Positions 1 to 12,193 of a DNA stretch of 64,000 bases are shown piece by piece. The notes under the pieces are model-generated. The model was not told the DNA's origin, made no database searches, and was given only the letters and a program-made list of their open reading frames with translations. The number at the start of each line of letters is the position of its first letter. The stretch's first letter is position 1. Origin of the DNA: a virus; IMG/VR virus record IMGVR_UViG_3300010157_000040, positions 1 through 64,000 of that record; one strand, 5' to 3'. Both the position numbers and the translations under genes were made by a program.

Positions 1-113
1 ATATGTTTTAGACCAACAAGGGTCTTACCTACACCAGTTCCTAAAACTATTGTACATTTTTGTTTACCATCAGTAGCTTTTAATGCTGCTGTTTGTATTT
101 CTTCTCTGTTCAT
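1..113 (-). CDS. SF2 (DEAD/DEAH-type) helicase, N-terminal fragment
   Basis: The first 37 or so residues of a protein that continues beyond the left edge of the window. Residues 25-31 read GTGVGKT, a Walker A (P-loop) motif, preceded by the hydrophobic strand CTIVL. A Q-containing N-terminus (REEIQTAALKA) followed this early by the P-loop is typical of superfamily 2 helicases in phage replication modules. The gene starts 5 bases after the stop of the HNH-like gene, so both lie in one leftward operon. Helicase versus another P-loop ATPase cannot be settled from this fragment. Confidence 0.65.
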   Translation of the reverse strand, partial: MNREEIQTAALKATDGKQKCTIVLGTGVGKTLVGLKH

Positions 114-117
114 AATA

Positions 118-525: not shown

Positions 526-988
526 TTCTTAATCTTGGTAACTGATTCTGTGGTACTTCTAAACTTAAAAAGTTTTTTGGCAACACTCCTTCAGCCATAA
601 AGATACTGATAATCTGGTCTTTACTGATATTTAAATCTTTAAAAGTTAAAGTATTTTTAAATTTTTCATCAGTTTCAGTCTCAGATAATAAAAACTCAGT
701 AATAGGACTGTTAGGAAATAATGTTTCAAAGATAAAATTGCTTTGAGCAATAGTTACTTGTTGCTTAAGTTTGTTAATTACAACTTGGGCTCTCTTATAA
801 ACATTAATAATCCTTTGTCTTTTTTTACTACACATTACTGATAACTCATTATCATTAAGTGCTGTTAAACCATACAAAGCTCTTTTGTATAAATAGTTTT
901 GATAGTTTGAATAACTATCTTGCTCATATGACATCACAGTTTGTGATCTCATCTGATAATTCTTTACCTCTTGTTTTAACTTTTCCAT
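512..988 (-). CDS. Hypothetical protein, mostly helical
   Basis: 158 residues with no family that I recognise. Residues 1-95 are rich in K, Q and Y with heptad-like spacing (NKLKQQVTIAQSNFIF), which suggests a coiled coil. The C-terminal half is acidic. It overlaps the HNH-like gene by 14 bases, so it is probably co-translated with it and the helicase. The first Met follows an A/T-rich leader typical of this phage. Confidence 0.55.
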   Translation of the reverse strand: MEKLKQEVKNYQMRSQTVMSYEQDSYSNYQNYLYKRALYGLTALNDNELSVMCSKKRQRIINVYKRAQVVINKLKQQVTIAQSNFIFETLFPNSPITEFLLSETETDEKFKNTLTFKDLNISKDQIISIFMAEGVLPKNFLSLEVPQNQLPRLRNDKI

Positions 989-1019
989 AATACATATTTT
1001 TTTTAATCATAAATAAATA

Positions 1020-1063
1020 ATAAAAGGGACACATTACTGCATCCCAATTATCTCCCCTTTTAA
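1020..1063 (-). terminator. Intrinsic terminator
   Basis: On the minus strand the sequence just after the 1072-1551 gene has AAAAGGGGA pairing with TCCCTTTT across a roughly 25-base loop, then TATTATT. It would end the 1072-1551 unit, although readthrough to the helicase operon is possible because no clear promoter lies between. Confidence 0.5.
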
Positions 1064-1071
1064 ACTTTTAA

Positions 1072-1551
1072 TTATTTTAAATCAAAATCTGTGTTCGGTG
1101 ACATTGCTTTACTAGAAGTATTATTTTTTGCAGCATATGCATTACGTAATTCTTCTATGTTATCATGTGCAATTATTTCATCAACACTATTTGGATTTTG
1201 AGAATATGTAGTTTTACGGTAAATAGGTTCACCATTTACTCTACATACAATACCTGTTGCTCCTGCAACTTTCAGATCTCTTTCTGGTGTTTTTTTGTTA
1301 AAAGGAATCATAGATTCTTTTACAACAATATTACCTGGAATAATTTGACCTGAATAATATTTCATTTCTTGCAACATTAAAATTGGTGCATGAATTAATG
1401 ATGATACAGTTCTTCTTCTAAGAAATCCTGATTCATCAATCATTGTTCTTGTTTGTTGAAATCTAACAAATCCATATTGTGGATTATTTGCAGAAATACT
1501 AATTACAGCATTTGTAGTTGCATCAGCAACCACGGTTACGTTTGAATTCAT
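1072..1551 (-). CDS. Conserved phage protein, possible nucleic-acid-binding
   Basis: 159 residues. The N-terminal 30 residues form a beta-rich segment (NSNVTVVADATTNAVISIS). Later come QQTRTMIDESGFLRRR, GQIIPGNIVVKESM, GIVCRVNGEPIYRKT and HDNIEELRNAY. I recall similar proteins in crAss-like phages next to replication genes, but the function is not known to me. A beta-rich core with an acidic, disordered-looking tail would suit a ssDNA-binding protein, which is only an inference. It has its own leftward promoter motif at 1615-1635 and a terminator at 1020-1063, so it is a single-gene unit that may be strongly expressed. Confidence 0.6.
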   Translation of the reverse strand: MNSNVTVVADATTNAVISISANNPQYGFVRFQQTRTMIDESGFLRRRTVSSLIHAPILMLQEMKYYSGQIIPGNIVVKESMIPFNKKTPERDLKVAGATGIVCRVNGEPIYRKTTYSQNPNSVDEIIAHDNIEELRNAYAAKNNTSSKAMSPNTDFDLK

Positions 1552-1614
1552 AACTAAGTTTTAATAAATAAATAAATAATTGATTGTGTGAGTAGATACT
1601 ATATTACTAGTACT

Positions 1615-1635
1615 CAATTAGTAATAAGTTGTAAT
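1615..1635 (-). promoter_or_regulatory. Leftward phage promoter motif (copy 8)
   Basis: Minus-strand ATTACAACTTATTACTAATTG closely matches the motif found upstream of units in the 7.7-9.5 kb region (ATACARCTT-N3-ACTNCTATGG). It ends about 64 bases before the start codon at 1551, in a gene-free gap. Confidence 0.55.
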
Positions 1636-1651
1636 ATTCCGTGAAAAAATA

Positions 1652-1921
1652 TTAATTATCCAGTGGACCTGATAAATCTATTATATCATCAAATGGTTCA
1701 TCATCTGATATAATATCATTAACATCACCTTCTTCAGCAAGGTAATCAAAGTCATAATACTTTTCTTTAGTATTATTATCTATTGCTGAACCTGTAAATG
1801 GATTGACTACGTGTTCTCCGTAATCTAAAGACATGAGATATTGTATATCTAAATCTGTGAGATCTAAATACTCTTCTATTGAAAGATAAACTACTTTTCC
1901 GTTTGGTAAGTTATAAAACAT
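1652..1921 (-). CDS. Small acidic conserved phage protein
   Basis: 89 residues, very acidic at the C-terminus (DFDYLAEEGDVNDIISDDEPFDDIIDLSG). The N-terminus MFYNLPNGKVVYLSIEEYLDL is of a type I associate with crAss-like phages, where such genes lie beside the 1072-type protein. The acidic tail could interact with a basic partner such as a DNA-binding protein; that is inference. A degenerate copy of the promoter motif lies upstream. Confidence 0.55.
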   Translation of the reverse strand: MFYNLPNGKVVYLSIEEYLDLTDLDIQYLMSLDYGEHVVNPFTGSAIDNNTKEKYYDFDYLAEEGDVNDIISDDEPFDDIIDLSGPLDN

Positions 1922-1931
1922 TATATATACA

Positions 1932-1957
1932 TATCTATTAGTAAAAATACGTGTTAA
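1932..1957 (-). promoter_or_regulatory. Possible degenerate leftward promoter
   Basis: Minus-strand TTAACACGTATTTTTACTAATAG resembles the motif at 1615-1635 in its 3' part (TTACTAAT) and lies 11 bases upstream of the start codon at 1921. The match is weak. Confidence 0.25.
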
Positions 1958-2009
1958 TTAATGACAAGTATACACTAATGATATAATATTTAGCAATATA
2001 TAGCTACAT

Positions 2010-2036
2010 AATAAAGGGAAGCCTAAACTTCCCTTA
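2010..2036 (-). terminator. Intrinsic terminator
   Basis: Minus strand: AAGGGAAG-TTTAGG-CTTCCCTT followed by TATTATG, about 37 bases past the 2074 stop codon. An 8-bp perfect stem in an AT-rich gap. Confidence 0.7.
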
Positions 2037-2073
2037 TTATTATTGGAAAAGTATACTCACAGAACATACTATC

Positions 2074-2493
2074 TTAAATTTCCTCTATAACTGTAAGATA
2101 CTCACTAGAAGTATATGTAACATCTTTCTTTCTTCTACCATCTTCTAGAATATTAGTATATTCTACTGTATAATCAGAATATTCATGGTATCCTCTAAAA
2201 TCTTGAATTGATACAATAATAGTGTCATTAACACACAAATCACTTTCTGCAATTAATACTTTATTTGCACTATAACTTACCTGATTAATAGGCATATAAC
2301 ACAGTGTACCTTTTGCAAGTACTTTAGGTAATTTACCACTTATCATTAGTTTAAAGAAATGTTGTATAGCTTGACTACTACTACATAACATAGGAGTAAG
2401 TAACTTTACAAATTCTGCACTATTTGGGTCTTTAATAATTTTTTCTAATGCTTTAGCAACATCAGAATCTTCATAATTTACTGATATAGTCAT
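2074..2493 (-). CDS. Hypothetical protein
   Basis: 139 residues, no family recognised. The N-terminal half looks helical (DVAKALEKIIKDPNSAEF). The C-terminal half is beta-rich (VSYSANKVLIAESDLCVNDTIIVSIQDFRGYHEY). The start codon lies 2 bases after the stop of the 2496 gene, so the two are co-transcribed. A strong terminator follows. Confidence 0.55.
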   Translation of the reverse strand: MTISVNYEDSDVAKALEKIIKDPNSAEFVKLLTPMLCSSSQAIQHFFKLMISGKLPKVLAKGTLCYMPINQVSYSANKVLIAESDLCVNDTIIVSIQDFRGYHEYSDYTVEYTNILEDGRRKKDVTYTSSEYLTVIEEI

Positions 2494-2495
2494 AG

Positions 2496-2708
2496 TTAAT
2501 CATTTAATCTTCTGTAATCCATAATTTTATCTATTAGACCTTCATTATAATGTGTAAACCATTTCTTATCAGGTATCCTATGATTTATTACAGTAACTTC
2601 ATCAGGATAATAAGTTGATCTTGCACCTGTTCTAATTTCTTTTTCATCAGTATCTTTGATAGTTATATTAAAATCAAAACCTAATACTGAATTAATAACA
2701 TCATCCAT
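2496..2708 (-). CDS. Small hypothetical protein
   Basis: 70 residues with no recognised domain. It has the A-rich leader TTAACTTAAACTTATA before its ATG, the same leader type as the genes at 3279 and 4737. It is the first gene of a two-gene unit with the 2074 gene and lies just after a terminator hairpin. Confidence 0.5.
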   Translation of the reverse strand: MDDVINSVLGFDFNITIKDTDEKEIRTGARSTYYPDEVTVINHRIPDKKWFTHYNEGLIDKIMDYRRLND

Positions 2709-2725
2709 AATTATAAGTTTAAGTT

Positions 2726-2758
2726 AAAGAAAACAGACTATTACACCTTTTGTCTGTT
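2726..2758 (-). terminator. Intrinsic terminator
   Basis: Minus strand: AAACAGAC pairs with GTCTGTTT across a 13-base loop and is followed by TCTTT. It lies 30 bases downstream of the membrane protein gene at 2788-3279. Confidence 0.6.
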
Positions 2759-2787
2759 TAATGCGGATAGAGGTGCACGCAACTTTT

Positions 2788-3279
2788 TTAATCATTTGGA
2801 TCTAATAATTCCCATGTTTCTTCATCATCACCAAGAATCCAAACATTTTTAATATAACCATCAGTTCCTAATTCAAACACTTTAGTTGGAAATTCAATCA
2901 TAATTTCACCTGTTTCTACTTTATAAATAGTAATTACAGATTCCATATGATGTAACATAATGTTTCTTATAAATCTTTTTTCAAATTTAGTATAAGATTC
3001 AGGAATTGGATAAGGTTTAGGATATGTAAAACTAAACAATGCAAGACCAATCATCAATAAAGATGCAACTATAAATGCATATATAGCAAGTCTAAATGGT
3101 TTCATAGCATGTAATAAAAATAATTCATTCTCTACTTTAACAATACTATAGTGTAAATCAGACATTGCTGCCTGTACTACTTCAGGATTTTCTACTTTTG
3201 CATGTAAGCAATCATATAATCTATTTTCTAATGCTTCTTTTTGTTTAAGAAGTCTTCTTGTTTTAATAATTCTGTACAT
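2788..3279 (-). CDS. Membrane-anchored hypothetical protein
   Basis: 163 residues. Residues 1-60 are predicted coiled coil (KTRRLLKQKEALENRL). A single strong membrane segment follows at about 63-87 (LAIYAFIVASLLMIGLALF). The C-terminal 75 residues are soluble, end acidic (LGDDEETWELLDPND) and are beta-rich. The shape suggests an inner-membrane protein with a cytoplasmic coiled coil, perhaps involved in host takeover or superinfection control. I cannot name the family. Confidence 0.55.
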   Translation of the reverse strand: MYRIIKTRRLLKQKEALENRLYDCLHAKVENPEVVQAAMSDLHYSIVKVENELFLLHAMKPFRLAIYAFIVASLLMIGLALFSFTYPKPYPIPESYTKFEKRFIRNIMLHHMESVITIYKVETGEIMIEFPTKVFELGTDGYIKNVWILGDDEETWELLDPND

Positions 3280-3293
3280 AAGAGTAATTTTAA

Positions 3294-3330
3294 GTTAAAA
3301 AAAAAGAGTCCAGATTTTCCGGACTCTTAT
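3294..3330 (-). terminator. Intrinsic terminator
   Basis: Minus strand: AAGAGTCC-GGAAAATCT-GGACTCTT followed directly by TTTTTTT. It ends the membrane/lipoprotein operon (3352 and upstream) just before the leader of the 3279 gene. Confidence 0.85.
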
Positions 3331-3351
3331 AATGCATCAATAATTGTTAAA

Positions 3352-3504
3352 TTATTTAGATGCAACATCATTTTGATTAATAGTAGTTACTTGACTGTAT
3401 GCATCACATGTAGTATGTGAAACTGCACAACTTCCAAGTAAAATACTAATTGTAATAATAAATATAGCATAAACTACTGCAACTAAATTAACTTTCTTTT
3501 TCAT
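3352..3504 (-). CDS. Small lipoprotein (50 aa)
   Basis: A short ORF of 50 codons, too small for many gene callers: a basic start (MKKKVN), then a hydrophobic stretch (VAVVYAIFIITISILLG) and the lipobox LLGSC with Cys at position 26. The mature part is only about 25 residues and contains a second Cys (HTTCDAY). It starts 2 bases after the stop of the 3507 membrane protein gene and is followed by a strong terminator, so it is the last gene of that operon. Phage-encoded lipoproteins of this size often serve superinfection exclusion, but nothing here proves that. Confidence 0.6.
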   Translation of the reverse strand: MKKKVNLVAVVYAIFIITISILLGSCAVSHTTCDAYSQVTTINQNDVASK

Positions 3505-3506
3505 AA

Positions 3507-3698
3507 TTAATAATTTTCATTGTAAATACTAAATGTAACTGCACATAATAAATATACACTTTCTAATATCCAATTGAAAATTCCAAACCCGGAAAAATCA
3601 ATTGTATTAAGAGTAAATATACCTACTATAAAAAACTGACAACCTATTGCTACTAATATAGATAAGGTCATTTTAAAGATTATGTTATTTACTTTCAT
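3507..3698 (-). CDS. Small two-helix membrane protein
   Basis: 63 residues with two membrane segments (about 9-30 and 38-58) and almost no loops. It overlaps the 3695 gene by 4 bases (ATGA) and precedes the lipoprotein gene. The three genes form an envelope-directed operon. Function unknown; a holin-like role is possible but a clear holin exists at 21633. Confidence 0.5.
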   Translation of the reverse strand: MKVNNIIFKMTLSILVAIGCQFFIVGIFTLNTIDFSGFGIFNWILESVYLLCAVTFSIYNENY

Positions 3699-3883
3699 TT
3701 CTTTTTAGATAAGTGTTCATAATCCCATAAACTAACACAAGCCATCATAATACATAAACAAAATGTTGTTAATGATATTATTAGGTCATTTTGTGTTTGT
3801 GCAGTTAGTACATTGTATAAACTTACACCTGTCATTGCTGTACATAGACCGGCAATGAATAAACTAATTTTCTTGTTTCTCAT
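3695..3883 (-). CDS. Small two-helix membrane protein
   Basis: 62 residues, two predicted membrane segments (about 8-27 and 33-52) and a basic C-terminus (HLSKKK). It overlaps both neighbours by 4 bases, indicating translational coupling. Family not recognised. Confidence 0.5.
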   Translation of the reverse strand: MRNKKISLFIAGLCTAMTGVSLYNVLTAQTQNDLIISLTTFCLCIMMACVSLWDYEHLSKKK

Positions 3884-4098
3884 ATTAATTTTTTTAAATC
3901 AGAATAAATATTATATTTTGTTCTTACATCTTCTATATCCATATCTGTACTTATGGCTAGTTCTTTGTAATTTTCCATTTTTTCATTAAGAATATTTATT
4001 ATTTGTTGTCTATATTCTTCATTAATAATGTCAAACACTTCCTTTAATAAGCTGTTATAAATAAAAGCTTTTAATTCATTTGAATTTTGCATAATCAT
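3880..4098 (-). CDS. Small helical hypothetical protein
   Basis: 72 residues, largely helical (LLKEVFDIINEEYRQQIINILNEKMENYKEL), no membrane segment. It is the first gene of the operon that continues into the two small membrane proteins and the lipoprotein. No family recognised. The second Met (position 3) is equally possible as the start. Confidence 0.5.
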   Translation of the reverse strand: MIMQNSNELKAFIYNSLLKEVFDIINEEYRQQIINILNEKMENYKELAISTDMDIEDVRTKYNIYSDLKKLI

Positions 4099-4141
4099 AT
4101 TTTTAAATCATAAATAAGTATACAGTTTCACCATTTAACTG

Positions 4142-4423
4142 TTAAGGTTTACTCAATTCTTGTATTTTAGCCATATAGTCAGTAACTTCCTCTATTGTTA
4201 AATGACCAATAACATCTTGTGCTATCGGAGTATCATAACATATAACAGTAAAGGTCTGTCCTGGTGGTATTTTAACTACGGCAATCTCAAATTTACCAAG
4301 TAATCCACCTTTAGTAAATGGACCCATGACAACTGATATACCGTAATCATTGTCAAACATAAGTGTAGCACTTACACTCTCCATACCATTCTTTTGAAAT
4401 TCTAAATCTTTAAATTCTTTCAT
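4142..4423 (-). CDS. Hypothetical protein
   Basis: 93 residues, no family recognised. The middle is beta-rich (ISVVMGPFTKGGLLGKFEIAVVKI) and the C-terminus is a helix (EVTDYMAKIQELSK). The start codon lies 2 bases after the stop of the 4426 gene, so these are co-transcribed. Confidence 0.5.
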   Translation of the reverse strand: MKEFKDLEFQKNGMESVSATLMFDNDYGISVVMGPFTKGGLLGKFEIAVVKIPPGQTFTVICYDTPIAQDVIGHLTIEEVTDYMAKIQELSKP

Positions 4424-4425
4424 AA

Positions 4426-4737
4426 TTAAAATGGAAAATCATTCATATATACTAAATCATTAGGAATAGGACTTACTATTGCTACTTTTCTTTCAAGTAA
4501 AGCACCAACTTTATAGTCTATTTTAAAGATTTCAAGATCTTTATGAAAACCTTGAAAATCTTCATATGAAAGAACACCTTCAAGTCTTCTAATATTTTTT
4601 CTGCCTGTACTACAAACTAAAATATTTTTATATTTTTCTTGTAATGTTAATGCATCATTCCAGTTTAAATTAACATTTAATTTTACTACAGTCACATTTC
4701 CTATAGGATTGTAACCAAATGGTAGTGATCTATTCAT
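4426..4737 (-). CDS. Hypothetical protein (start corrected)
   Basis: 103 residues beginning MNRSLPFGYNP. An upstream in-frame extension to 4878 exists only with a TTG start and would overlap two better small ORFs. The ATG at 4737 has the typical leader TTAACTTAAAACTTAAACTT, so I chose it. The sequence has GNVTVVKLNVNLNW, EKYKNILVCSTGRKNIRRLEG and FKIDYKVGALLERKVAI, which suggests an alternating alpha/beta fold. No family recognised. Confidence 0.5.
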   Translation of the reverse strand: MNRSLPFGYNPIGNVTVVKLNVNLNWNDALTLQEKYKNILVCSTGRKNIRRLEGVLSYEDFQGFHKDLEIFKIDYKVGALLERKVAIVSPIPNDLVYMNDFPF

Positions 4738-4777
4738 AAGTTTAAGTTTTAAGTTAATAATCATAAAAGCAGGACTT

Positions 4778-4867
4778 TCACCTGTTAAGTTTGTGTTTAT
4801 CTTTTCTTGTATATTTCTTCTTATTCTTGTAAATGACAGGTTTAGTAACCTGCCATATTTCCTGCAT
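4778..4867 (-). CDS. Very small basic protein (29 aa)
   Basis: A 29-codon ORF, MQEIWQVTKPVIY followed by a strongly basic tail (KNKKKYTRKDKHK). Phages often carry tiny proteins with such a YTRK-KHK tail. It starts 8 bases after the stop of the 44-aa ORF upstream and fills a gap that is otherwise empty once the 4426 gene start is corrected. Short length keeps the confidence modest. Confidence 0.4.
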   Translation of the reverse strand: MQEIWQVTKPVIYKNKKKYTRKDKHKLNR

Positions 4868-4874
4868 TGTAACT

Positions 4875-5009
4875 TCAATCTTTTTCATTTCTTTCTTTTT
4901 TTCTTTCTTCATAACATTGCTGACACTCATGAAGTTCATCACAAGTGCAAGTTAATTCCGGAGATATACTATATAACATAGCCATATCATAAACATCTTC
5001 AAACATCAT
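4875..5009 (-). CDS. Small cysteine-containing protein (44 aa)
   Basis: A 44-codon ORF with CTC, CQQC and a charged helical tail (YEERKKERNEKD). Four cysteines in two pairs suggest a small zinc-binding site. It lies between the 5044 gene terminator and the 29-aa ORF and has an A/T-rich leader. No family recognised. Confidence 0.45.
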   Translation of the reverse strand: MMFEDVYDMAMLYSISPELTCTCDELHECQQCYEERKKERNEKD

Positions 5010-5029
5010 AATATTTAGTTTAGTTAGTT

Positions 5030-5053
5030 AATAATAAAGGGGATTACTCCCCT
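5030..5053 (-). terminator. Terminator containing the stop codon of 5044-5235
   Basis: Minus strand: AGGGGA-GTAA-TCCCCT followed by TTATTATT. The TAA stop codon of the upstream gene forms the loop, and the last codons (GGG GAG) form the 5' stem arm. The same layout occurs at 5274-5296. Confidence 0.75.
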
Positions 5054-5235
5054 GTTATTTTATTTAAGATTCCTGGATCTTGAGTATAATATTGAGCAAG
5101 TATTAAAAGATCTTTCTCTTTAATACAAGCCTGAATTATTAAATCAAAATTGTTACTCCACTCTTTATGAATATCTAAAGTTTTATCTTTAACATATTCA
5201 TCTAATTCTTTTTGATTGTTAAATGTTATTTGCAT
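5044..5235 (-). CDS. Small hypothetical protein
   Basis: 63 residues, acidic and helical, no recognised domain. It ends in Gly-Glu encoded by GGGGAG, which is also the 5' arm of its terminator. A degenerate promoter motif lies 20-40 bases upstream. It appears to be a single-gene unit like its neighbour at 5287. Confidence 0.5.
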   Translation of the reverse strand: MQITFNNQKELDEYVKDKTLDIHKEWSNNFDLIIQACIKEKDLLILAQYYTQDPGILNKITGE

Positions 5236-5253
5236 AATATATAGTTTAAGATT

Positions 5254-5276
5254 ATTAATAGTAAAAAGAAGTTTTA
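5254..5276 (-). promoter_or_regulatory. Degenerate leftward promoter motif
   Basis: Minus-strand AACTTC-N5-ACTATTAAT resembles the 8208-8229 copy (CTTCCTACTATTATGG). As in the clear copies, it follows immediately after a terminator T-tract. The match is partial. Confidence 0.35.
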
Positions 5277-5296
5277 AAAAAGGGGATCACTCCCCT
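5274..5296 (-). terminator. Terminator containing the stop codon of 5287-5445
   Basis: Minus strand: AGGGGA-GTGA-TCCCCT then TTTTTT. The TGA stop codon lies in the loop. It ends the 52-aa gene, and probably the long unit that starts near 7729. Confidence 0.8.
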
Positions 5297-5445
5297 AATG
5301 CATTTTCTGCATAATTTACTTGAGATTCTATGTACTCTTGTAAGTGATCTCTGAATTGTGTGTAAGCATCTAAGTACTTATACTGTGCTGTTTCAATTCT
5401 TGTATCAAGCATAGCAATAATTTGTAATACTGTTTCTGTGTCCAT
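5287..5445 (-). CDS. Small helical protein (52 aa)
   Basis: A 52-codon ORF starting MDTETVLQIIAML and ending ENALGE. It is predicted to be almost all helix with heptad spacing (LDTRIETAQYKYLDAY). It lies directly downstream of the 1.57 kb structured region on the same strand and directly before a strong terminator. It is therefore either the product of a very long-leader mRNA or a gene co-transcribed with the structured RNA. Confidence 0.55.
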   Translation of the reverse strand: MDTETVLQIIAMLDTRIETAQYKYLDAYTQFRDHLQEYIESQVNYAENALGE

Positions 5446-5564
5446 AATATATAAGTTAGTTGATTACTATTTAATATCCCTCTGCACTCAGTTGTAATAT
5501 GTAAGATTTAGTATTATTTACCGCAGGTGTGACTAAGCAACCTGCTCTCTTACTATTACAACTG

Positions 5565-5583
5565 CTCACCCTTGGGAAGTGAG
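5565..5583 (-). other. Conserved-loop hairpin, copy 1
   Basis: Plus-strand notation CTCAC-CCTTGGGAA-GTGAG. It pairs with copy 2 at 6654-6672 in that the loop is identical but four of the five stem pairs differ, with pairing kept. This is compensatory change within one molecule. Confidence 0.7.
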
Positions 5584-6543
5584 TTGTGGTGCATTAATAT
5601 TTGAAAGGATGAGTATTGACCTTTCATGTTGTTATTTTTGGAAAATTTCTTCTCCGCATACACACTTATATTTCTACAAGTAAACAACATGCTCAATGAT
5701 TTATAGTATCATCATACTTTTACATATTAGTGCAATAAATTTCCTTTCATACCAACTTCCTTACGGGATTAACAGTATGTCTACTGCTAGTTAAGATATT
5801 AATCAGTCCTTTTACATAAACCTTGCGGGTCTTCTGTATCTACATATTTCAGTAGAATAAGAGCATTTTCACTAATAAGTGCTAGAACATTTTTTGCTTT
5901 TAAGTTTTTAGTTTAAATGCGGTTCAGGAAATAATGTGAAGTAGTTCCAACTTTATATAACATAATACCTTTTGAGTACCTTAGTTATAACTTCACATTG
6001 CTTTAAGCTGCCAAGCTTACTTACTGTTTGATGTAAATACACACTATTTCTAGTAGCATACGGAACATCTTACTAATAACAACTTCCATCTTGGCAAGAT
6101 GTACTATTGTTACCTATTGCACTTTCTATTGACATTTCTGTCTCAACTTCCTACCTGTTAGAAAGTCTACATCTCTATGCATCAACCGTTAGGCCACAAG
6201 CACACCAAAATGTAGGTAGTTACAATACTCTTCTGTAGACAGAATTACTTCTGCGCAATATGTTACCAACATATCACTTTATACCATTACTGGTTTATCC
6301 TATGGTCACGAGAGCTGACCTGTTGTTTCAGTAGTTCCACAAGGAAACTTAACGTATACACCATGAGTATCTAAACTCTGAGGGTAACAACATTGTATAC
6401 TTAATGGTCATTAAGGTATTTAGACCAAAACCTATTGTCTTGTAACTATACTGGACAATCCCACGCCAGCAACTTACTGGATAGTTGTTTCATTATAGTG
6501 TAACAACCCACACTTTATCCCTCTGTACTCAATATGCATATCC

Positions 6544-6646
6544 TAAATATTTACATCACAAATATATTAAGACCTTAAGTGGTCAAGTACAAGTACTTAT
6601 ATTTTATAAATATTTATCACGGATATGTTAAGACACTAAGTGGTCA
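6544..6646 (-). repeat. Imperfect tandem repeat of about 41 nt within the structured RNA
   Basis: TAAATATTTA-(CA)-TCAC followed by ATATRTTAAGAC and TAAGTGGTCA occurs at 6544-6585 and 6607-6646. Each copy can form a GACC/GGTC-type or GACAC/GTGTC-type hairpin around the common TTAAG/CTAAG core. Confidence 0.7.
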
Positions 6647-6653
6647 CATATTG

Positions 6654-6672
6654 TCTACCCTTGGGAAGTAGA
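6654..6672 (-). other. Conserved-loop hairpin, copy 2
   Basis: Plus-strand notation TCTAC-CCTTGGGAA-GTAGA. Same loop as 5565-5583 with a different, still fully paired stem. Confidence 0.7.
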
Positions 6673-7013
6673 AATGGTACATTACTAGGACTTAATAACA
6701 CGCTAAGTTTTAAGTATTGATAGTTATCATCCCGCAGTGGTAAAATAACATATACTAATGTACTTGCTGACCTTGGTCATTAAATCCTATTGTACTCTCA
6801 CAAGGTTGCAACCCTTGAATTATAAGTAACATTTCCACGTTCTTATAAGAAGACCCGCACAAGGCTAATGTCTAATCTGCTTGGATGAGAGTAATTTGGT
6901 ACAACATTATTGGTTAGTTGTACAGTTGCGGAGAGGAATACTGCCTCACACTCTGTATATTCTTGCATTTTTAATCTGTTCCTATCATTAGTTCAAGGAT
7001 ACTGATTAGTAAC

Positions 7014-7283
7014 TTAATGCATTATATGGTAAGCATCTTTTAGTCTATTTTCAACAGAACCTAAAAGTATACCTTCATCACTATACACAAGAAGTCTAAG
7101 AACATCTTTGTTTAGTTTAGTACCACCTAACATTTCCATATTAATGCAATCAATTAAATGATCACCAACATAAAAGTTCATAGTCCAAGAATTACCATTA
7201 TCTCTTTCAATAACTTTCAAGCAAGGATCTTCAGTGGTAGTTAATGTAGGTGCCCACCAACCTGTGTGAATAAAATCTTTCAT
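7014..7283 (-). CDS. Hypothetical protein between two structured RNA regions
   Basis: 89 residues, MKDFIHTGWW to YHIMH. The middle (WTMNFYVGDHLIDCINMEML) is beta-rich. No family recognised. It sits alone between the structured stretches at 5446-7013 and 7300-7728, on the same strand, with an A/T-rich leader (TATATATTATG). It could be a protein partner of the RNA, but only its position suggests this. Confidence 0.5.
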   Translation of the reverse strand: MKDFIHTGWWAPTLTTTEDPCLKVIERDNGNSWTMNFYVGDHLIDCINMEMLGGTKLNKDVLRLLVYSDEGILLGSVENRLKDAYHIMH

Positions 7284-7299
7284 AATATATATAGTTTTA

Positions 7300-7728
7300 A
7301 ATTTATTTAATTCCGGAGTAACTTACTATCTCATCCTAACTATAAGTAGTATATAGTAATACAATACAGTTCTAATAGATAAATCTATTGTTCAGTATAT
7401 CTATTTGCTAAGAATAGAATTACCTTATCACTTCTGTATAAGAGCACTGTATTAGCTATATATTATCTAGTATGTGTATATCACACCTGATTTTCTTATT
7501 CATTTCTCACTAATAATATGAGGATAGTTTTACTGTCAACACCTTAATTCCTCACATTTCTACACAGTTCTCAATTTTTAACTGCTTGATTATCAGTACC
7601 AAAGTCTACTTGTTACACACGGTGGAGACAACTATTATTTATGTACAAACATCACAACTATCTTAAATAATTTTGTGGTGATACTTGTATAAACTTGTGA
7701 CCGTGTGACCGTTAACTGTAATTAATAA
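7300..7728 (-). ncRNA. Candidate structured RNA or long leader (about 430 nt)
   Basis: ORF-free, hairpin-rich stretch between the promoter motif at 7729-7751 and the 7014-7283 gene. ACACACGGT (about 7613-7621) pairs with ACCGTGTG (about 7700-7707) and encloses a long hairpin whose arms are GTACAAACATCAC and GTGATACTTGTAT. Further hairpins are AATAGAT-AA-ATCTATT (7374-7389), TGAGG/CCTCA (7519-7554), CAGTT/AACTG (7565-7583) and GTGT/ACAC near 7475. It may be a separate RNA or the long 5' leader of the 7014 gene. Confidence 0.5.
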
Positions 7729-7751
7729 CCTATAGAAGTTGAAAGCTGTAT
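7729..7751 (-). promoter_or_regulatory. Leftward phage promoter motif (copy 1)
   Basis: Minus-strand ATACAGCTTTCAACTTCTAT followed by AGG. The GCAGC element lies 6 bases upstream (7758-7769, GCCTGCGGCAGC) and a terminator lies just beyond. No ORF follows for about 450 bases, so this copy would drive the structured RNA unit. Confidence 0.6.
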
Positions 7752-7774
7752 TTCTTTGCTGCCGCAGGCTGTTG

Positions 7775-7812
7775 TTAAAAACAAATGAACCACATATTTC
7801 TATGTAGTTCAT
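7775..7812 (-). terminator. Intrinsic terminator, 12-bp stem with GAAA loop
   Basis: Minus strand: ATGAACTACATA-GAAA-TATGTGGTTCAT then TTTGTTTTT. One pair is a U-G wobble on the minus strand and would be an A-C mismatch on the plus strand, which fixes the transcribed strand. It lies after the 7880-8155 gene. Confidence 0.8.
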
Positions 7813-7879
7813 TAATGTTGTCTACTTCTGTTGCCAAGGTGTAGTAGTCCTCCGAATCTTATTCAGTTATCGCAGTTGC

Positions 7880-8155
7880 TTACAATGATGCTAATACATC
7901 AGCAAACATAGCAGGTGTAGCAATAGTTGCACTAGTTCCCGTAAGAACAGTTAACCATAACTTGTCACCATCTACTATGGCTTCAACATTGTAGGTATTT
8001 CCTACTGTTGCTTTAGATACGGATTTCTCCCATATCTTAGCAAAGTATTCAGTACCACCAATGTTAACAATGCAAGAACGGAACATAGTTCCATTTACAT
8101 TGGCCTTAACTGTATCAGAAAATGATGTAAGTGAACCACTTAACATTTTTTCCAT
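7880..8155 (-). CDS. Paralogous small beta-rich protein A (possible OB fold)
   Basis: 91 residues starting MEKMLSGSLTSF. The open frame extends upstream to 8293, but that extension crosses a promoter motif at 8208-8229 and a 5' leader hairpin. From the ATG at 8155 the length equals that of the paralogue at 8507-8782 (91 residues), so I chose it. Shared core: NVNGTxFRSC, V-I-GTxYFAKxWEKS, VGxTYxVE, IVDGDKLWLT, ATPxMFA. The run of short beta strands resembles an OB fold, so nucleic-acid binding is possible but unproven. Confidence 0.65.
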   Translation of the reverse strand: MEKMLSGSLTSFSDTVKANVNGTMFRSCIVNIGGTEYFAKIWEKSVSKATVGNTYNVEAIVDGDKLWLTVLTGTSATIATPAMFADVLASL

Positions 8156-8181
8156 ATACCTGTAGGGGTTTAGGGTTAAAT

Positions 8182-8202
8182 ATTTCAGGTCTTTCCTGAA
8201 AT
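8182..8202 (-). promoter_or_regulatory. 5' leader hairpin of the 7880-8155 gene
   Basis: Minus strand: ATTTCAGG-AAAGA-CCTGAAAT, an 8-bp perfect stem between the promoter motif (8208-8229) and the start codon (8155). It may stabilise the message or control translation. No poly-U follows, so it is not a terminator. Confidence 0.55.
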
Positions 8203-8207
8203 TATAT

Positions 8208-8229
8208 CCATAATAGTAGGAAGCTGTAT
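8208..8229 (-). promoter_or_regulatory. Leftward phage promoter motif (copy 2)
   Basis: Minus-strand ATACAGCTTCCTACTATTAT followed by GG. GCCTGCGGCAGC lies 9 bases upstream (8239-8250). It drives the 7880-8155 gene with a leader of about 53 bases. Confidence 0.6.
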
Positions 8230-8315
8230 ATTTCATTTGCTGCCGCAGGCCAAACACAAAAACATTAGGTGCAGACATAACTGTGTAACCCAAGTGGATA
8301 GTGACCTAAGAAGTT

Positions 8316-8353
8316 TAAAAAAAAATATATACACCATTTTCAGGTGTATATAT
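8316..8353 (-). terminator. Intrinsic terminator
   Basis: Minus strand: ATATATACACC-TGAAAAT-GGTGTATATAT followed by eight T. An 11-bp stem. It ends the ORF-free unit that begins at the 8422-8443 promoter motif. Confidence 0.9.
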
Positions 8354-8421
8354 AATTTGTTAAGGGTTGCAATAAACATTGTAACATCATTTAACACGTA
8401 GTCAATGGCAACATTTATTAT
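8322..8421 (-). ncRNA. Candidate small RNA (about 100 nt)
   Basis: This interval lies between a promoter motif (8422-8443) and a strong terminator (8316-8353) on the minus strand, with no ORF longer than about 16 codons. It can fold as AATAAA/TTTATT with an inner CATTG/CAATG helix, followed by the terminator stem. The layout is that of a stand-alone small RNA gene. A tiny peptide gene remains an alternative. Confidence 0.5.
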
Positions 8422-8443
8422 CCATAGTAGTTGAAAGCTGTAT
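8422..8443 (-). promoter_or_regulatory. Leftward phage promoter motif (copy 3)
   Basis: Minus-strand ATACAGCTTTCAACTACTAT followed by GG. The upstream element TGCT-TTC-AGCAGC (8451-8462) ends 7 bases before the motif. It drives the ORF-free 8322-8421 unit. Confidence 0.6.
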
Positions 8444-8466
8444 ACTAAAAGCTGCTGAAAGCATTT

Positions 8467-8495
8467 AAAAAAAAGAAACACTCATAGAGTGCTTC
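8467..8495 (-). terminator. Intrinsic terminator
   Basis: Minus strand: GAAGCACTC-TAT-GAGTGTTTC then eight T. Nine pairs including one G-U, which exists only on the minus strand. It lies 12 bases past the 8507 stop codon. Confidence 0.85.
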
Positions 8496-8506
8496 TGTAG
8501 TTTGGT

Positions 8507-8782
8507 TTACACAGTTAAGTGTGCAAACATTTCTGGTGTTGCTACAACAGCTTTAGTGCCGTTAAGTAGTGTCAACCACAACTTATCACCGTCCACTATA
8601 CCTTCAACATCATAGGTACTGCCAACTTTGATTCCGTTTTGGAAAGATTTTTCCCAAACTTTAGCAAAGTATACAGTTCCGTTGATATCAACAGTACAAG
8701 AACGAAATAAAGTTCCGTTAACATTAGGTTTAGTTTCATTAGAAACTGTTTTAAGAACACCTTTTAAGATTAAATTTTCCAT
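8507..8782 (-). CDS. Paralogous small beta-rich protein B (possible OB fold)
   Basis: 91 residues, paralogue of 7880-8155 with colinear similarity along the whole length (KPNVNGTLFRSC, GTVYFAKVWEKS, VGSTYDVEGIVDGDKLWLT, ATPEMFAHL). Promoter motif copy 4 lies 40-61 bases upstream and a strong terminator follows, so the cassette of promoter, gene and terminator appears to have been duplicated as a unit. A small OB-like nucleic-acid-binding protein is my best guess. Confidence 0.65.
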   Translation of the reverse strand: MENLILKGVLKTVSNETKPNVNGTLFRSCTVDINGTVYFAKVWEKSFQNGIKVGSTYDVEGIVDGDKLWLTLLNGTKAVVATPEMFAHLTV

Positions 8783-8821
8783 AAGATTTTTTTTAGATTA
8801 TGGGTTAATAATAATTTATAT

Positions 8822-8843
8822 CCATAGTAGTTTAAAGTTGTAT
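8822..8843 (-). promoter_or_regulatory. Leftward phage promoter motif (copy 4)
   Basis: Minus-strand ATACAACTTTAAACTACTAT followed by GG. The element TGCC-TTT-GGCAGC lies 8 bases upstream (8852-8864). It drives the 8507-8782 gene. Confidence 0.65.
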
Positions 8844-8868
8844 TAATGAAAGCTGCCAAAGGCATTTT

Positions 8869-8891
8869 AAAAAAAAGGGAATTAACCCTTT
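8869..8891 (-). terminator. Intrinsic terminator
   Basis: Minus strand: AAGGG-TTAA-TTCCCTT-type hairpin (AAAGGGTTAATTCCCTTT) followed by a run of T, directly after the 8894 stop codon. Confidence 0.8.
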
Positions 8892-8893
8892 CA

Positions 8894-9142
8894 TTACTTT
8901 AGAATTAAAATTTCATGATATAAATCTTCTATTACTAAATCATCCATAAATTCTAATAAGTCTATACTTCTTAGTTTCCTATGTGTTAATATATTAATGC
9001 GGTTATCTGCATTACTTAATATTATTATATAAGGAAATCTATTGTTATATGAACTATAATAGTCATTATGATATACTGATCTTTCACAGATATCTATATT
9101 AGTTATCTTATTTTCTATTGCAATTTCTTTAATTGTTTTCAT
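8894..9142 (-). CDS. Hypothetical protein
   Basis: 82 residues, no family recognised. Features are a helical N-terminus (MKTIKEIAIENK), a Tyr-rich middle (RSVYHNDYYSSYNNRFPYIII) and a helical C-terminus. It is a single-gene unit with a promoter motif 27 bases upstream and a terminator immediately downstream. Confidence 0.55.
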   Translation of the reverse strand: MKTIKEIAIENKITNIDICERSVYHNDYYSSYNNRFPYIIILSNADNRINILTHRKLRSIDLLEFMDDLVIEDLYHEILILK

Positions 9143-9168
9143 TTTAAATAAGTTTAAAAATTAATAAT

Positions 9169-9190
9169 CATTAGAAGTATTAAGTTGTAT
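9169..9190 (-). promoter_or_regulatory. Leftward phage promoter motif (copy 5)
   Basis: Minus-strand ATACAACTTAATACTTCTAA followed by TG. It follows the poly-U tail of the 9201-9288 RNA and drives the 8894-9142 gene. Confidence 0.65.
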
Positions 9191-9194
9191 AATA

Positions 9195-9288
9195 ATAAAA
9201 GAGAAAACCCCGCAGTTACTACGTGCACTTAATTTTAGATGTGGTGTATATTAATTGTGCATTCCACTTATCATATTGGAATTTTCTC
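9195..9288 (-). ncRNA. Candidate 88-nt multi-arm small RNA
   Basis: On the minus strand the 5' GAGAAAA (9288-9282) pairs with TTTTCTC (9207-9201), followed by TTTTATTATT. The closed region holds three arms: ATTCCA/TGGAAT, GCAC-aa-TTAA with TTAA-GTGC around an 18-base loop, and CGTAG-taa-CTGCG. The last arm contains a U-G wobble that is paired only on the minus strand. The promoter motif (9288-9309) ends exactly at the first G. It is not a tRNA: there is no T-loop sequence and no anticodon arm of proper size. It may act as a regulatory RNA; its function is unknown. Confidence 0.6.
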
Positions 9289-9309
9289 ATTAGAAGTATT
9301 AAGCTGTAT
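9288..9309 (-). promoter_or_regulatory. Leftward phage promoter motif (copy 6)
   Basis: Minus-strand ATACAGCTTAATACTTCTAA followed by TG. Its last G is the first base of the closing stem of the 88-nt RNA, which suggests that transcription starts at the motif's 3' end. Confidence 0.65.
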
Positions 9310-9311
9310 AA

Positions 9312-9340
9312 TAAAAACTAATAGGATATCTCTATCCTAT
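9312..9340 (-). terminator. Terminator containing the stop codon of 9332-9457
   Basis: Minus strand: ATAGGATA-GAGA-TATCCTAT then TAGTTTTT. An 8-bp stem. The gene's TAG stop codon lies within the 5' arm. Confidence 0.85.
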
Positions 9341-9457
9341 ATAGTCTAACATCATTGGTATAATATACATACTATCCAAAGCAAGTGATGTAAAGAACAT
9401 CTGAATTTTTTCTTTCCGAGTTCCTTTCCAATTACATACTATTATCAAAGTTATCAT
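9332..9457 (-). CDS. Small protein (41 aa)
   Basis: A 41-codon ORF: MITLIIVCNWKGTRKEK, then IQMFFTSLALDSMYIIPMML and a final DYIG. The C-terminal half is hydrophobic and could be a short membrane or amphipathic helix. It has a promoter motif 20 bases upstream (9477-9498), and its stop codon lies inside its terminator, as at 5044 and 5287. This supports it as a real gene despite its size. Confidence 0.55.
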   Translation of the reverse strand: MITLIIVCNWKGTRKEKIQMFFTSLALDSMYIIPMMLDYIG

Positions 9458-9476
9458 AATTATATTTTTTAATATT

Positions 9477-9498
9477 CCATAGAAGTATGAAGTTGTAG
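9477..9498 (-). promoter_or_regulatory. Leftward phage promoter motif (copy 7)
   Basis: Minus-strand CTACAACTTCATACTTCTAT followed by GG. It is the first leftward promoter after the divergent region and drives the 41-aa gene. Confidence 0.6.
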
Positions 9499-9660
9499 TT
9501 TCTTTTCTCTGGAAAAAATCTTTTGAAAATTATTCCTGTGTGTCATAGGCTACTATACAAAACAGCAGGGGGTACACCCATTCCGGCAAGTGGGTGGGGT
9601 CATCCTGATAGGGGTCCACTTCCATATCTCACATACTAAATTTTCATTTTACCCAGTTCA

Positions 9661-9684
9661 TTTGTCCAGTAATTTGTCCAGTAA
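9661..9684. repeat. Perfect 12-bp tandem repeat
   Basis: TTTGTCCAGTAA occurs twice without a gap inside the divergent region. Paired iterons of this kind often bind an initiator or regulator, but two copies are weak evidence. Confidence 0.7.
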
Positions 9685-10105
9685 ATGGTGCAAGAAACTT
9701 GACATTCTGGGGGGATACTTATGTGGTAAAATGCCGGGGGGGTCTAGCTATTCTGAGGTACCTGTAACAGTCTACCTACCTCTACTGCATAGACATGGTG
9801 AAAATTTTTATGTAAGATTGTGTCGCAAATATCTGCTATATTTGAGACAGAATTTTCCACCATAACAGGAATATAACTAGTTTAGTGATGGAAATCTTCC
9901 ACTATAAGTATATAAAGTGCATGAATTTTTCCAAAATCTTCATGCATAATGTAACTTATAAGTAACAAAAAAGTCTACAATTTGTAAACTATATATAGCA
10001 TTATATGTAAAATTTAAGGGAATAGCTTTATTTAATATGCAAAACTTTAAGGGTATAACCTTACAAAATTTACATTTGTGCATAATCATAATTACTTGTA
10101 CCAAA

Positions 10106-10120
10106 AAATTTAGTATATTA
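10106..10120 (+). promoter_or_regulatory. Possible rightward promoter (TATATTA box)
   Basis: AAATTTAGTATATTA lies 22 bases before the first rightward gene. It matches the -10-like part of the better rightward promoters (16111, 39217, 43649, 46521). A TTGTTA partner at the usual distance is not seen. Confidence 0.4.
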
Positions 10121-10141
10121 AGTATATAAACAATTTTACTT

Positions 10142-10522
10142 ATGTATAATTTTAATGTAGAAGTTAAAAAAAGTAAAAACCCTAAATGTGATATGGGTTT
10201 ATTTGCTAAAGAATTTATACCAATGAATTCTATAGTATGGGAATTTACAGAACACATTGATGCTAAAGTTCCCCTAGCAATATATGATGACTTAAATGCA
10301 GCACAAAAAAATTTTTGTGACAAGTATGGTTATGTACAAAATGAATGGTTATACTTACTTAATGATTTAGGTAAATTTGTAAATCATAGCATAACTCCAA
10401 ATACAGAATATAAAAATGGAAAAGTATATGCTGTTAAAGATATTAATATAGGTGATGAAATTTGGGAAAACTATAGTAAGTTTGATGATAATTTTAATAA
10501 ATATAAAGATGAACTTTTATAA
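10142..10522 (+). CDS. SET-domain protein
   Basis: 126 residues spanning a compact SET domain. It has GLFAKEFIP with NSIVWEF near the N-terminus, LGKFVNHSITPNTEY (the NHS-x-PN signature at about 80-94) and AVKDINIGDEIWENYS (the GDEI-x-x-NY signature near the C-terminus). SET domains bind S-adenosylmethionine and methylate lysines, here perhaps on host or phage proteins. It is the first gene of the rightward arm. A second SET domain lies at the start of the 54339 protein. The fold is well supported; the target is unknown. Confidence 0.8.
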   Translation: MYNFNVEVKKSKNPKCDMGLFAKEFIPMNSIVWEFTEHIDAKVPLAIYDDLNAAQKNFCDKYGYVQNEWLYLLNDLGKFVNHSITPNTEYKNGKVYAVKDINIGDEIWENYSKFDDNFNKYKDELL

Positions 10523-10583
10523 CTAAAGTTACATACCCATAATACATGAAAATATTCTTTGATCATATTAATACTTTTACAAT

Positions 10584-10781
10584 ATGATATATGAACCTAA
10601 TAATAGAATTGATGTTGATACACCAAAAGGTCCAGGTGCAATATGGTTAGTAACTGACTATGGTCATGAGACTGATACTATCTATACAGTAATTATAAAT
10701 GCTACCGGAGAACTATGGCAGTATACTCATAAAGATATAAGAGTTAAAAATAACATAACCTTTGGTAGAGTAATTAAATAA
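10584..10781 (+). CDS. Small beta-rich hypothetical protein
   Basis: 65 residues with the pattern of a small SH3-like barrel: KGPGAIWLVTDYG, DTIYTVIINATGELWQYTHKDIRV. Short proteins of this layout are common in phages and often lack known function. A TATATTA box lies downstream, before the next gene, so it may be transcribed with the SET gene. Confidence 0.5.
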   Translation: MIYEPNNRIDVDTPKGPGAIWLVTDYGHETDTIYTVIINATGELWQYTHKDIRVKNNITFGRVIK

Positions 10782-10782
10782 T

Positions 10783-10800
10783 TATTTGTATATTAGTATA
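10783..10800 (+). promoter_or_regulatory. Possible rightward promoter (TATATTA box)
   Basis: TTTGTATATTAGTATA in the gap before the 10817 gene. The TATATTA box is at 10789-10795, with no clear TTGTTA element at the optimal spacing. Confidence 0.35.
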
Positions 10801-10816
10801 TAACAAATAACTCAAC

Positions 10817-11350
10817 ATGAAAAAAACAAACAAAGTTAATCCACTTGAATTTTTTAGAAAATCTGCGGAAGCTAGACATAAAGCAATTACTTCAGGTAAT
10901 ACTACTGAACCAAAACAAAAATTAACAAAAGCACAGACAGGTATAGCAGTAAATGATACTATAAATAGACCGTATAATAATGTTATAGATGTTAATCAAA
11001 AAGTAAAAGATATATTACCATCTAATAATGTTCCTAGACCTGTAATATTAGGAGATTATAATTCTAAAAAAAATGACATATATGATGCATATATGGAATC
11101 TATAACTAATAAACCAAAACCTAATACACCTCTTTCACCTGAAAATTCTGGAACTATGCAAGCTAGAAGTAATGCATATCAGAAAACAGGTGGTACACAT
11201 AAAATGCCAAATGGTAAAGTAATGCTTAATTCTAAAATGAAAATGGGTGGAACTACTAAAGCAACTAAGTTTGCAGCATTAGCTCCTCCATATAATAAAG
11301 CAACAGCAGCAGATAGAATTGCAGGTGCTAAGAAAAATAAAAAGAAATAA
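10817..11350 (+). CDS. Basic, disordered GG-motif protein
   Basis: 177 residues, strongly basic and low complexity, with little predicted structure. It contains the short motif KMKMGGTTK near residues 140-150 and ends AGAKKNKKK. The same kind of hydrophobic/basic residues followed by GG recurs in the small basic proteins at 35768-38051 and in the giant virion proteins, which links it to the virion by inference. It overlaps no neighbour; the secreted protein gene starts 1 base after it. Confidence 0.5.
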   Translation: MKKTNKVNPLEFFRKSAEARHKAITSGNTTEPKQKLTKAQTGIAVNDTINRPYNNVIDVNQKVKDILPSNNVPRPVILGDYNSKKNDIYDAYMESITNKPKPNTPLSPENSGTMQARSNAYQKTGGTHKMPNGKVMLNSKMKMGGTTKATKFAALAPPYNKATAADRIAGAKKNKKK

Positions 11351-11351
11351 T

Positions 11352-11918
11352 ATGAAAAAGTTTATATTACTATTAATGTTATCAGTATCTAGTTTAGCAT
11401 ATACTCAGAATCATGCTCTTTATATTTACAAAGGTAAGTTTGCATTTTGTGGTGCATCTGCTGCAGTCCCTACCGGTAAACTAATTACTGTTCAAGGTAG
11501 AACATTTTTAGAAGGATGTTCAGTATGTCCTGTATTAGATGGTCCGTCTATTGGTAATTCTTATTTAGTTCCGGATCCTTCTGTATCTCCAGATGGAACA
11601 GATAGTACAGTATGGTCATTCTTTTGGTATTCAGATTCTGTACCTCAAGCACCAACATGGGAAGTTCTTCCTACAGTAAATAGATCCTTTGTAGTATCTG
11701 ATACCTTAGGTGGAGGAATGAGTAACATGTTCTGTATGCCATGTAAATATTTTAAAGAAGTTAACGGAATTACATTAGTTAAATGTTATGGTCCTCTTAA
11801 TGAAGCTGCGGTACCTTTAAAGAAAGCAATGAGAGTTCATAAAGGACAAACTTCAATTACACAAGCACCTGTTGGAGCACCATATCCAGTAGGAACTATC
11901 ATACCTGTAAAGAATTAG
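11352..11918 (+). CDS. Secreted cysteine-containing protein with signal peptide
   Basis: 188 residues from the ATG at 11352; an upstream in-frame extension to 11319 overlaps the previous gene and was discarded. The N-terminus MKKFILLLMLSVSSLAYTQ is a clear signal peptide with likely cleavage after the SSLAYTQ region. The mature part has cysteine pairs (FCGAS, CSVCP, MFCMPC, KCYG) and looks beta-rich. A phage-made exported protein could modify the host envelope or block superinfection. No family recognised. Confidence 0.55.
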   Translation: MKKFILLLMLSVSSLAYTQNHALYIYKGKFAFCGASAAVPTGKLITVQGRTFLEGCSVCPVLDGPSIGNSYLVPDPSVSPDGTDSTVWSFFWYSDSVPQAPTWEVLPTVNRSFVVSDTLGGGMSNMFCMPCKYFKEVNGITLVKCYGPLNEAAVPLKKAMRVHKGQTSITQAPVGAPYPVGTIIPVKN

Positions 11919-11920
11919 TC

Positions 11921-12193
11921 ATGGCAAAGACAGCAGCATGGCAAAGAAAAGAAGGTAAAAATCCTGCAGGAGGATTGAATGCAAAAGGTGTAGCAAGTTA
12001 TAGAGCAGCTAACCCTGGTAGTAAACTTAAGATGGCAGTTACTACTAAACCATCTAAACTTAAACCAGGTAGTAAAGATGCTAATAGAAGAAAAAGTTTT
12101 TGTGCAAGAATGTCTGGTATGCCGGGTCCTGCAAAAAAACCAAATGGTGAACCAACAAGAAAGACTCTTGCATTAAGAAAATGGAACTGCTAA
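11921..12193 (+). CDS. DUF6321-type small basic protein
   Basis: 90 residues. The motif series AWQRKEGKNPAGGLNAKG, RRKSFCARMSGMPGP and PTRKTLALRKWNC is the pattern that I associate with the DUF6321 family, common in phages of many hosts and of unknown function. It is basic and could bind nucleic acid. It overlaps the AlkB-like gene by 13 bases, which suggests translational coupling. Confidence 0.65.
   Translation: MAKTAAWQRKEGKNPAGGLNAKGVASYRAANPGSKLKMAVTTKPSKLKPGSKDANRRKSFCARMSGMPGPAKKPNGEPTRKTLALRKWNC

Follow-up and report, generated by a model that had tools for sequence, protein, structure and literature searches.

A single-strand array of candidate early promoters in a crAss-like phage, with core versions that change together with the giant RNA polymerase block

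The stretch of DNA analysed here, called the window below, covers positions 1 to 64,000 of virus record IMGVR_UViG_3300010157_000040 and forms the left part of that 108,697-base record. Between positions 7729 and 9498 it carries seven copies of a short repeat, all on the same strand in one array that adjoins a divergent junction, and this report concerns that array as a set of candidate promoters together with the polymerase that may read it. In the direction of the minus strand, the copies and their surroundings are as follows.

9477-9498, minus strand: promoter copy 1, the array's first; core 9484-9497; no triloop hairpin; before a 41-amino-acid open reading frame (ORF; ~9332-9457)
9288-9309, minus strand: promoter copy 2; core 9295-9308; after a stem-loop at ~9321-9340 (read from the sequence); before a short non-coding stretch
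9169-9190, minus strand: promoter copy 3; core 9176-9189; before an 82-amino-acid ORF (8894-9142)
8822-8843, minus strand: promoter copy 4; core 8829-8842; after a terminator-like stem (8874-8891); before a 91-amino-acid ORF (8507-8782)
8422-8443, minus strand: promoter copy 5; core 8429-8442; after a terminator (8474-8496); before a short RNA ending at a terminator (8325-8353)
8208-8229, minus strand: promoter copy 6; core 8215-8228; before a second 91-amino-acid ORF (7880-8155)
7729-7751, minus strand: promoter copy 7, the array's last; core 7737-7750; after a terminator (7784-7813); before a long non-coding stretch

These seven sites match ATACARCTTNNNACTNCTATGG at 0-2 mismatches where 0.18 would be expected by chance, which bears out the original prediction as to their positions and strand. 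Their weight-matrix scores are 27-32 bits and the runner-up in the whole 108.7 kb reaches 12.4, a comparison made partly circular by the use of these very sites to build the matrix. A search of the rest of the record, which the prediction had proposed as a source of more copies, returned none within 2 mismatches of the tested 21-mer. Full agreement with the consensus is limited to the copies at 8422 and 8822, and those at 9169 and 9288 finish in CTAATG instead of CTATGG; the conserved part is a 14-base-pair core, TACARCTT-N3-ACT. The unit reads, in order, a terminator, in some cases a mini-hairpin (described below), the core, ~17-45 nucleotides, and then an ATG or an RNA. Placement of every copy after a terminator and before a gene or RNA, as had been claimed, is seen for most of them but not for 9477, the array's first, which has no terminator before it, or for 8208, where the automatic scan found none. 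The two 91-amino-acid ORFs (7880-8155 and 8507-8782, minus strand) look alike by eye and have no Pfam match; the second of the pair has a 64% identical homolog in one relative.

The record comes from a crAss-like phage. It has PHROG family hits for the terminase large subunit, the portal and the major head protein, and a portal search among annotated phages returned largely crAss-like relatives, the nearest isolate being Leptolyngbya phage Lbo-JY46 at 31.6% identity and the next csAssE-Sib. The region to the right of the window holds a giant-protein block, which includes an ORF of 3607 amino acids at 74269-85092, ~10 kb past the window's end. This ORF carries a DFDVD motif within SGADFDVDKL, the DxDxD polymerase signature, and its central part matches the virion RNA polymerase gene of phi14:2 (4.5e-19). 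A profile built from ten of its relatives had a single match among solved structures, PDB 6VR4 (E 2.7e-31), which is the phi14:2 DNA-dependent RNA polymerase (gp66), an enzyme with in vitro activity that has been linked to rifampicin-resistant early transcription (PMC10136315). The record therefore combines portal, terminase and head genes with a DxDxD polymerase homologous to phi14:2 gp66 inside a giant-protein block, as in crAss-like phages. Judged by these matches, ORF 74269-85092 is a crAss-type polymerase, with two double-psi barrels predicted in one chain. The original prediction had called for a dedicated phage RNA polymerase, single-subunit or multi-domain, encoded beyond the window; a giant one is there, and it is not of the T7 class that the promoter's layout had been taken to indicate. 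As a separate observation, a PF13532 2OG-Fe(II) oxygenase domain (3.6e-13) lies at record positions 84298-84945, beyond the window, at the C terminus of this ORF, and that oxygenase-bearing end is patchy among relatives.

Arrays at the same place are borne by ~20 relatives. Scanning for the hairpin together with the core yielded 27 viral contigs, with ~2 expected by a rough estimate from the information content of the pattern. Exact TACARCTT-N3-ACT cores lie in a single cluster on a single strand in G000 (7/8), G008, G026, G028, G027 (10/11) and G029 (7/8), and a reversed control pattern had zero matches in these six genomes. In further relatives, located via the polymerase and portal, a syntenic array is found ~15-25 kb upstream of the portal on the opposite strand. 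Using left-arm proteins as queries for relatives returned little beyond the same phage, and de novo motif runs without masking returned mostly coding repeats. No core cluster was found in phi14:2 or Lbo-JY46. The core sequence varies by lineage, in at least six versions, and TT-N3-ACT is common to many of them in register. Besides TACARCTT-N3-ACT, the versions read are these.

TACTTCTT-N3-ACT: G049 and G005
AGCARCTTYTATTG: G001 and G002
TATTTTTYCACT: G003 (few sites, by-eye reading)
ACCATTTT-N3-ACT: G038 and G039
AATACNMCNTAT-like: G074 and G077 (few sites, by-eye reading)
ATCARCCNTTAATTT-like: G053, G056 and G058 (few sites, by-eye reading)

The setting of the sites is kept in the relatives along with their strand. 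A terminator lies no more than 75 nucleotides upstream of 75/110 sites, compared with 8.8% of random positions, and 86/110 sites stand before an ORF start, compared with 42% at random. The next ATG is mostly 31-60 nucleotides from the start of the core, a spacing that leaves room for an RNA start ~17-24 nucleotides after the core's first base, where purines are present. We considered whether the core could be a component of the terminator and rejected this, because the first cores of the arrays have no gene upstream of them on their strand.

Core version and polymerase block change together. Among 20 genomes, identity of a polymerase fragment separates pairs with the same core from pairs with different cores with an area under the curve (AUC) of 0.97, compared with 0.80 for portal identity, and after regression on the portal the polymerase residual retains an AUC of 0.92 (permutation p 0.0005, with genomes taken as exchangeable although they are related). 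G001 and G002 illustrate the pattern, having a portal 83% identical to that of the phage studied here, a polymerase only 38% identical, and a different core. Within the polymerase, the N-terminal third follows core version more sharply than the catalytic part does, a hint that promoter specificity might be seated there.

A further element, new here and missed by the original prediction, is a mini-hairpin with a three-base loop upstream of the core. It is found before 4/7 window sites, with stems of 3-4 base pairs.

8855-8863, minus strand: GCC-TTT-GGC, before copy 4; its TTT loop is the exception
8454-8462, minus strand: GCT-TTC-AGC, before copy 5; compensatory stem change
8242-8250, minus strand: GCC-TGC-GGC, before copy 6; GCC-GCA-GGC on the template strand
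7761-7769, minus strand: GCC-TGC-GGC, before copy 7

When the relatives and the window are taken together, a hairpin with a TNC loop lies no more than 45 nucleotides upstream of 37/109 distinct cores and downstream of none, whereas shuffled controls gave a mean of 0.76 and a maximum of 4. In all but one of the 37, the loop ends 9-16 nucleotides from the core; one of the 37 hairpins, GGGG-TAC-CCCC in G028, is doubtful and lies inside a GC-rich block. When sites were selected on C-TNC-G only, the next pair was complementary in 35/35 and the third in 34/35, with several pair types, compared with 19.8 and 17.5 expected from column make-up. The loop is TNC on the non-template strand in 37 cases and GNA in 1, and TNC corresponds to C(GNA)G on the template strand; its centre is not restricted to a template purine (non-template T16 G11 A6 C2). 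Stems are 3-5 base pairs long in the relatives. We rejected a reading as a UNCG-type RNA tetraloop because a three-base loop is the only one that stems such as TTTGC/GCAAA can close. Hairpin-bearing promoters mostly stand last in their array, where a small conserved gene and a long non-coding region follow.

The T7-like 3' end is found mainly alongside the hairpin. That end (CTATRGG or CTATGG) had been put forward as part of the promoter, but GG is present in 33/51 hairpin-bearing sites and in only 6/50 others (p 4.5e-8, uncorrected for kinship), and in the phages with the TACARCTT core, hairpin sites tend to TATGGAT and the others to TATTAAT. The GG ending thus belongs mainly to the hairpin-bearing subclass and is not a property of the promoter as a whole.

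We conclude that the seven copies probably serve a crAss-like phage as early promoters and are read by the giant polymerase that the phage itself encodes, a view to which we give a probability of about 0.78 on the strength of these sequence comparisons. The giant polymerase would presumably enter the cell along with the DNA and recognise the core. In the sequence that comes after ACT, TATGGAT or TATTAAT, RNA would start at the purines directly behind the TAT. Transcription from a given promoter would cover one gene or RNA and end at that unit's own terminator, giving short monocistronic early RNAs. More weakly, in the C(GNA)G subclass the hairpin might be extruded, with the polymerase or some accessory factor making contact with it in the manner of N4, and might aid melting, or strengthen or time the promoters that bear it, which are usually the array's last. 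A fuller proposal, which we hold tentatively and would put a little short of an even chance, is that the two-barrel crAss-like virion polymerase has come convergently to use N4-like extruded C(GNA)G hairpins in combination with a 14-base-pair core that switches, even from one close relative to another, with the polymerase block, so that several orthogonal pairs exist.

Several points weigh against assigning the array to the giant polymerase. Beyond the treatment of related genomes as exchangeable, the assignment of core versions relied on reading by eye and on regular expressions, for some of them with one to three sites, and the nearest neighbour by portal predicts core version as well as the nearest neighbour by polymerase does. 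The neighbouring giant proteins at 68370-74267 and 85124-90994 co-vary with the polymerase, and therefore the specificity could lie in them, the linked unit being the block; it could be set by a neighbour protein injected alongside, or by some other factor. The presence of a second 91-amino-acid gene points to duplication of a unit as the origin of some copies. As for the hairpin, most sites lack one, the window stems have only 3-4 base pairs, the distance from hairpin to core is variable, and no such hairpins were found before the early genes of phi14:2 or in crAss001 at 60-102.7 kb. Hairpins of this class were likewise not found before the early genes of Lbo-JY46.

Other explanations of the array were considered. 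The copies could be promoters for the host RNA polymerase, with the repeat serving as the site of a host or phage sigma factor or activator; the array's position would suit any early promoter, and something other than the polymerase could be the factor that co-varies, given that the neighbouring giants change with it. We regard this as improbable: in a scan limited to sigma-70-like hexamers, 82 were counted in the region against 77.8 expected by chance, and early transcription in phi14:2 is rifampicin-resistant and ascribed to the virion RNA polymerase (PMC10136315). The T7-class layout of the original prediction, with a single-subunit T7-type polymerase, draws on the repeat's length of 22-23 base pairs and the TATGG-like 3' end of some copies, and we now give it almost no weight. 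The T7-type polymerase model PF00940 had zero matches in 15 crAss-like records, including this possibly incomplete one, while its positive controls responded (T7, 9.9e-110; N4 RNAPII, 9.6e-15), and the GG end is not conserved. An N4-type polymerase was rejected as well, because the record contains no similarity to the 3500-amino-acid N4 virion polymerase. A repeat array next to a GC-rich element at a divergent junction could also be linked to an origin, and the copies might then be replication-initiator iterons, or else regulator sites or RNA processing or translation elements. This we consider very improbable: genes lie between the copies, each copy sits at a junction of terminator and gene with the ATG mostly 31-60 nucleotides off, the strand is strictly single, the array opens with a core that has no gene upstream, and the core is tied to polymerase version.

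A narrower alternative concerns the hairpin only and is compatible with early promoters read by the giant polymerase. GCC-TNC-GGC could act as a weak terminator, or be bound by protein in double-stranded form, rather than work as a functional DNA hairpin. This would be in keeping with the 3-4-base-pair stems of the window, the T-rich sequence that often follows, and the low stability that DNA energy parameters give the GCC/GGC hairpins (-1.3 to -1.7 kcal/mol). However, the stem changes in sequence while its pairing is kept, most hairpin sites are already preceded by a terminator, the loop is fixed as TNC on the non-template strand (37 cases, compared with 1 for GNA), and the hairpins are of the N4 promoter class. 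We think this reading less likely than not.

Among known systems, phi14:2 is the closest in its polymerase (gp66, 6VR4), a homolog encoded in a giant-protein block, the small early genes being on the other strand (PMC10136315); it differs in that its polymerase has 2180 amino acids, compared with the 3607-amino-acid ORF here, and in having neither the TACARCTT core nor such hairpins before its early genes. The early promoters of N4 (Schitoviridae) resemble the hairpin-bearing subclass, with a template-strand C(GNA)G triloop hairpin before early genes and a giant polymerase (PMC4496689, PMC3715699); the N4 virion polymerase promoters have a template-strand triloop in which -10G and -12A form a sheared pair (PMC4496689). 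As a control, our hairpin scanner returned three sites in N4 bases 1-12000; all of them lie on the transcribed strand ahead of gp1, gp2 and RNAP1, which fits the three known early promoters of that phage (PMC3715699). In contrast to N4, the polymerase here is unrelated, an extra 14-base-pair core lies 9-16 nucleotides downstream of the hairpin, stems are shorter (5-7 base pairs in N4), the loop centre is not purine-restricted, and only ~1/3 of promoters have the hairpin. Its polymerase, the centre of its loops and the length of its stems place the array outside the N4 family, and its hairpin may or may not work like that of N4. The Thermus phage P23-45 likewise has a two-barrel polymerase, fused to the tape measure, and a short motif of its own before pre-early genes that is limited to relatives having that polymerase; the paper never mentions a hairpin (PMC10770324). 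T7-type promoters share the compact ~20-base-pair size and, in some copies, a GG near the putative start, and they differ in the polymerase, of which there is no match here, and in their conserved GG start. Neither a promoter motif nor a promoter hairpin of crAss-like phages turned up in the literature searched, which excluded the phi14:2 polymerase paper (10.1038/s41586-020-2921-5).

Since crAss-like phages are among the most abundant human gut viruses (PMC7886860), a precise and testable promoter candidate with natural variants offers a lead on how they begin infection. If the hairpin acts as it does in N4, two unrelated injected polymerases would share one solution for transcribing just-injected DNA. 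Orthogonal polymerases for gene-expression tools would be another product, drawn from the pairings of a core version with its polymerase block.

The original prediction had counted an eighth copy at 1615. That site retains only the 14-mer TACAACTTATTACT, scores 7.0 bits and ranks ~60. The same element occurs at the corresponding place in G040 and G001 (L129 ~8510); because G001 has it although its promoters use another core, we reject it as a promoter copy and take it for a separate conserved element.

1620-1633, minus strand: TACAACTTATTACT element; intergenic, upstream of a 159-amino-acid gene; not an array member

Other features lie around the array. A GC-rich block at ~9560-9640 (CCCCACCCACTTGCCGGAATGGGTGTACCCCC on the minus strand) adjoins the divergent junction, blocks like it sit before the first promoter in L138, L151, L152, L156 and L108, and what seems to be a decayed promoter copy is seen around 9530-9556. 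Downstream of the array, in a long non-coding stretch (~5457-7013), there is a match to GOLLD RNA (RF02032) at 5606-5998 on the minus strand (E 2.3e-21), whose 85 bits fall short of the gathering score, 150; searches of the relatives' left arms gave no GOLLD, one of those searches having had no positive control. Near the array's end, a similar non-coding segment (GTCTCCACCGTGTG.AACAAGT.GACTTTG) is present both in the window at ~7560-7660 on the minus strand and in G001 (L129 ~2720-2800).

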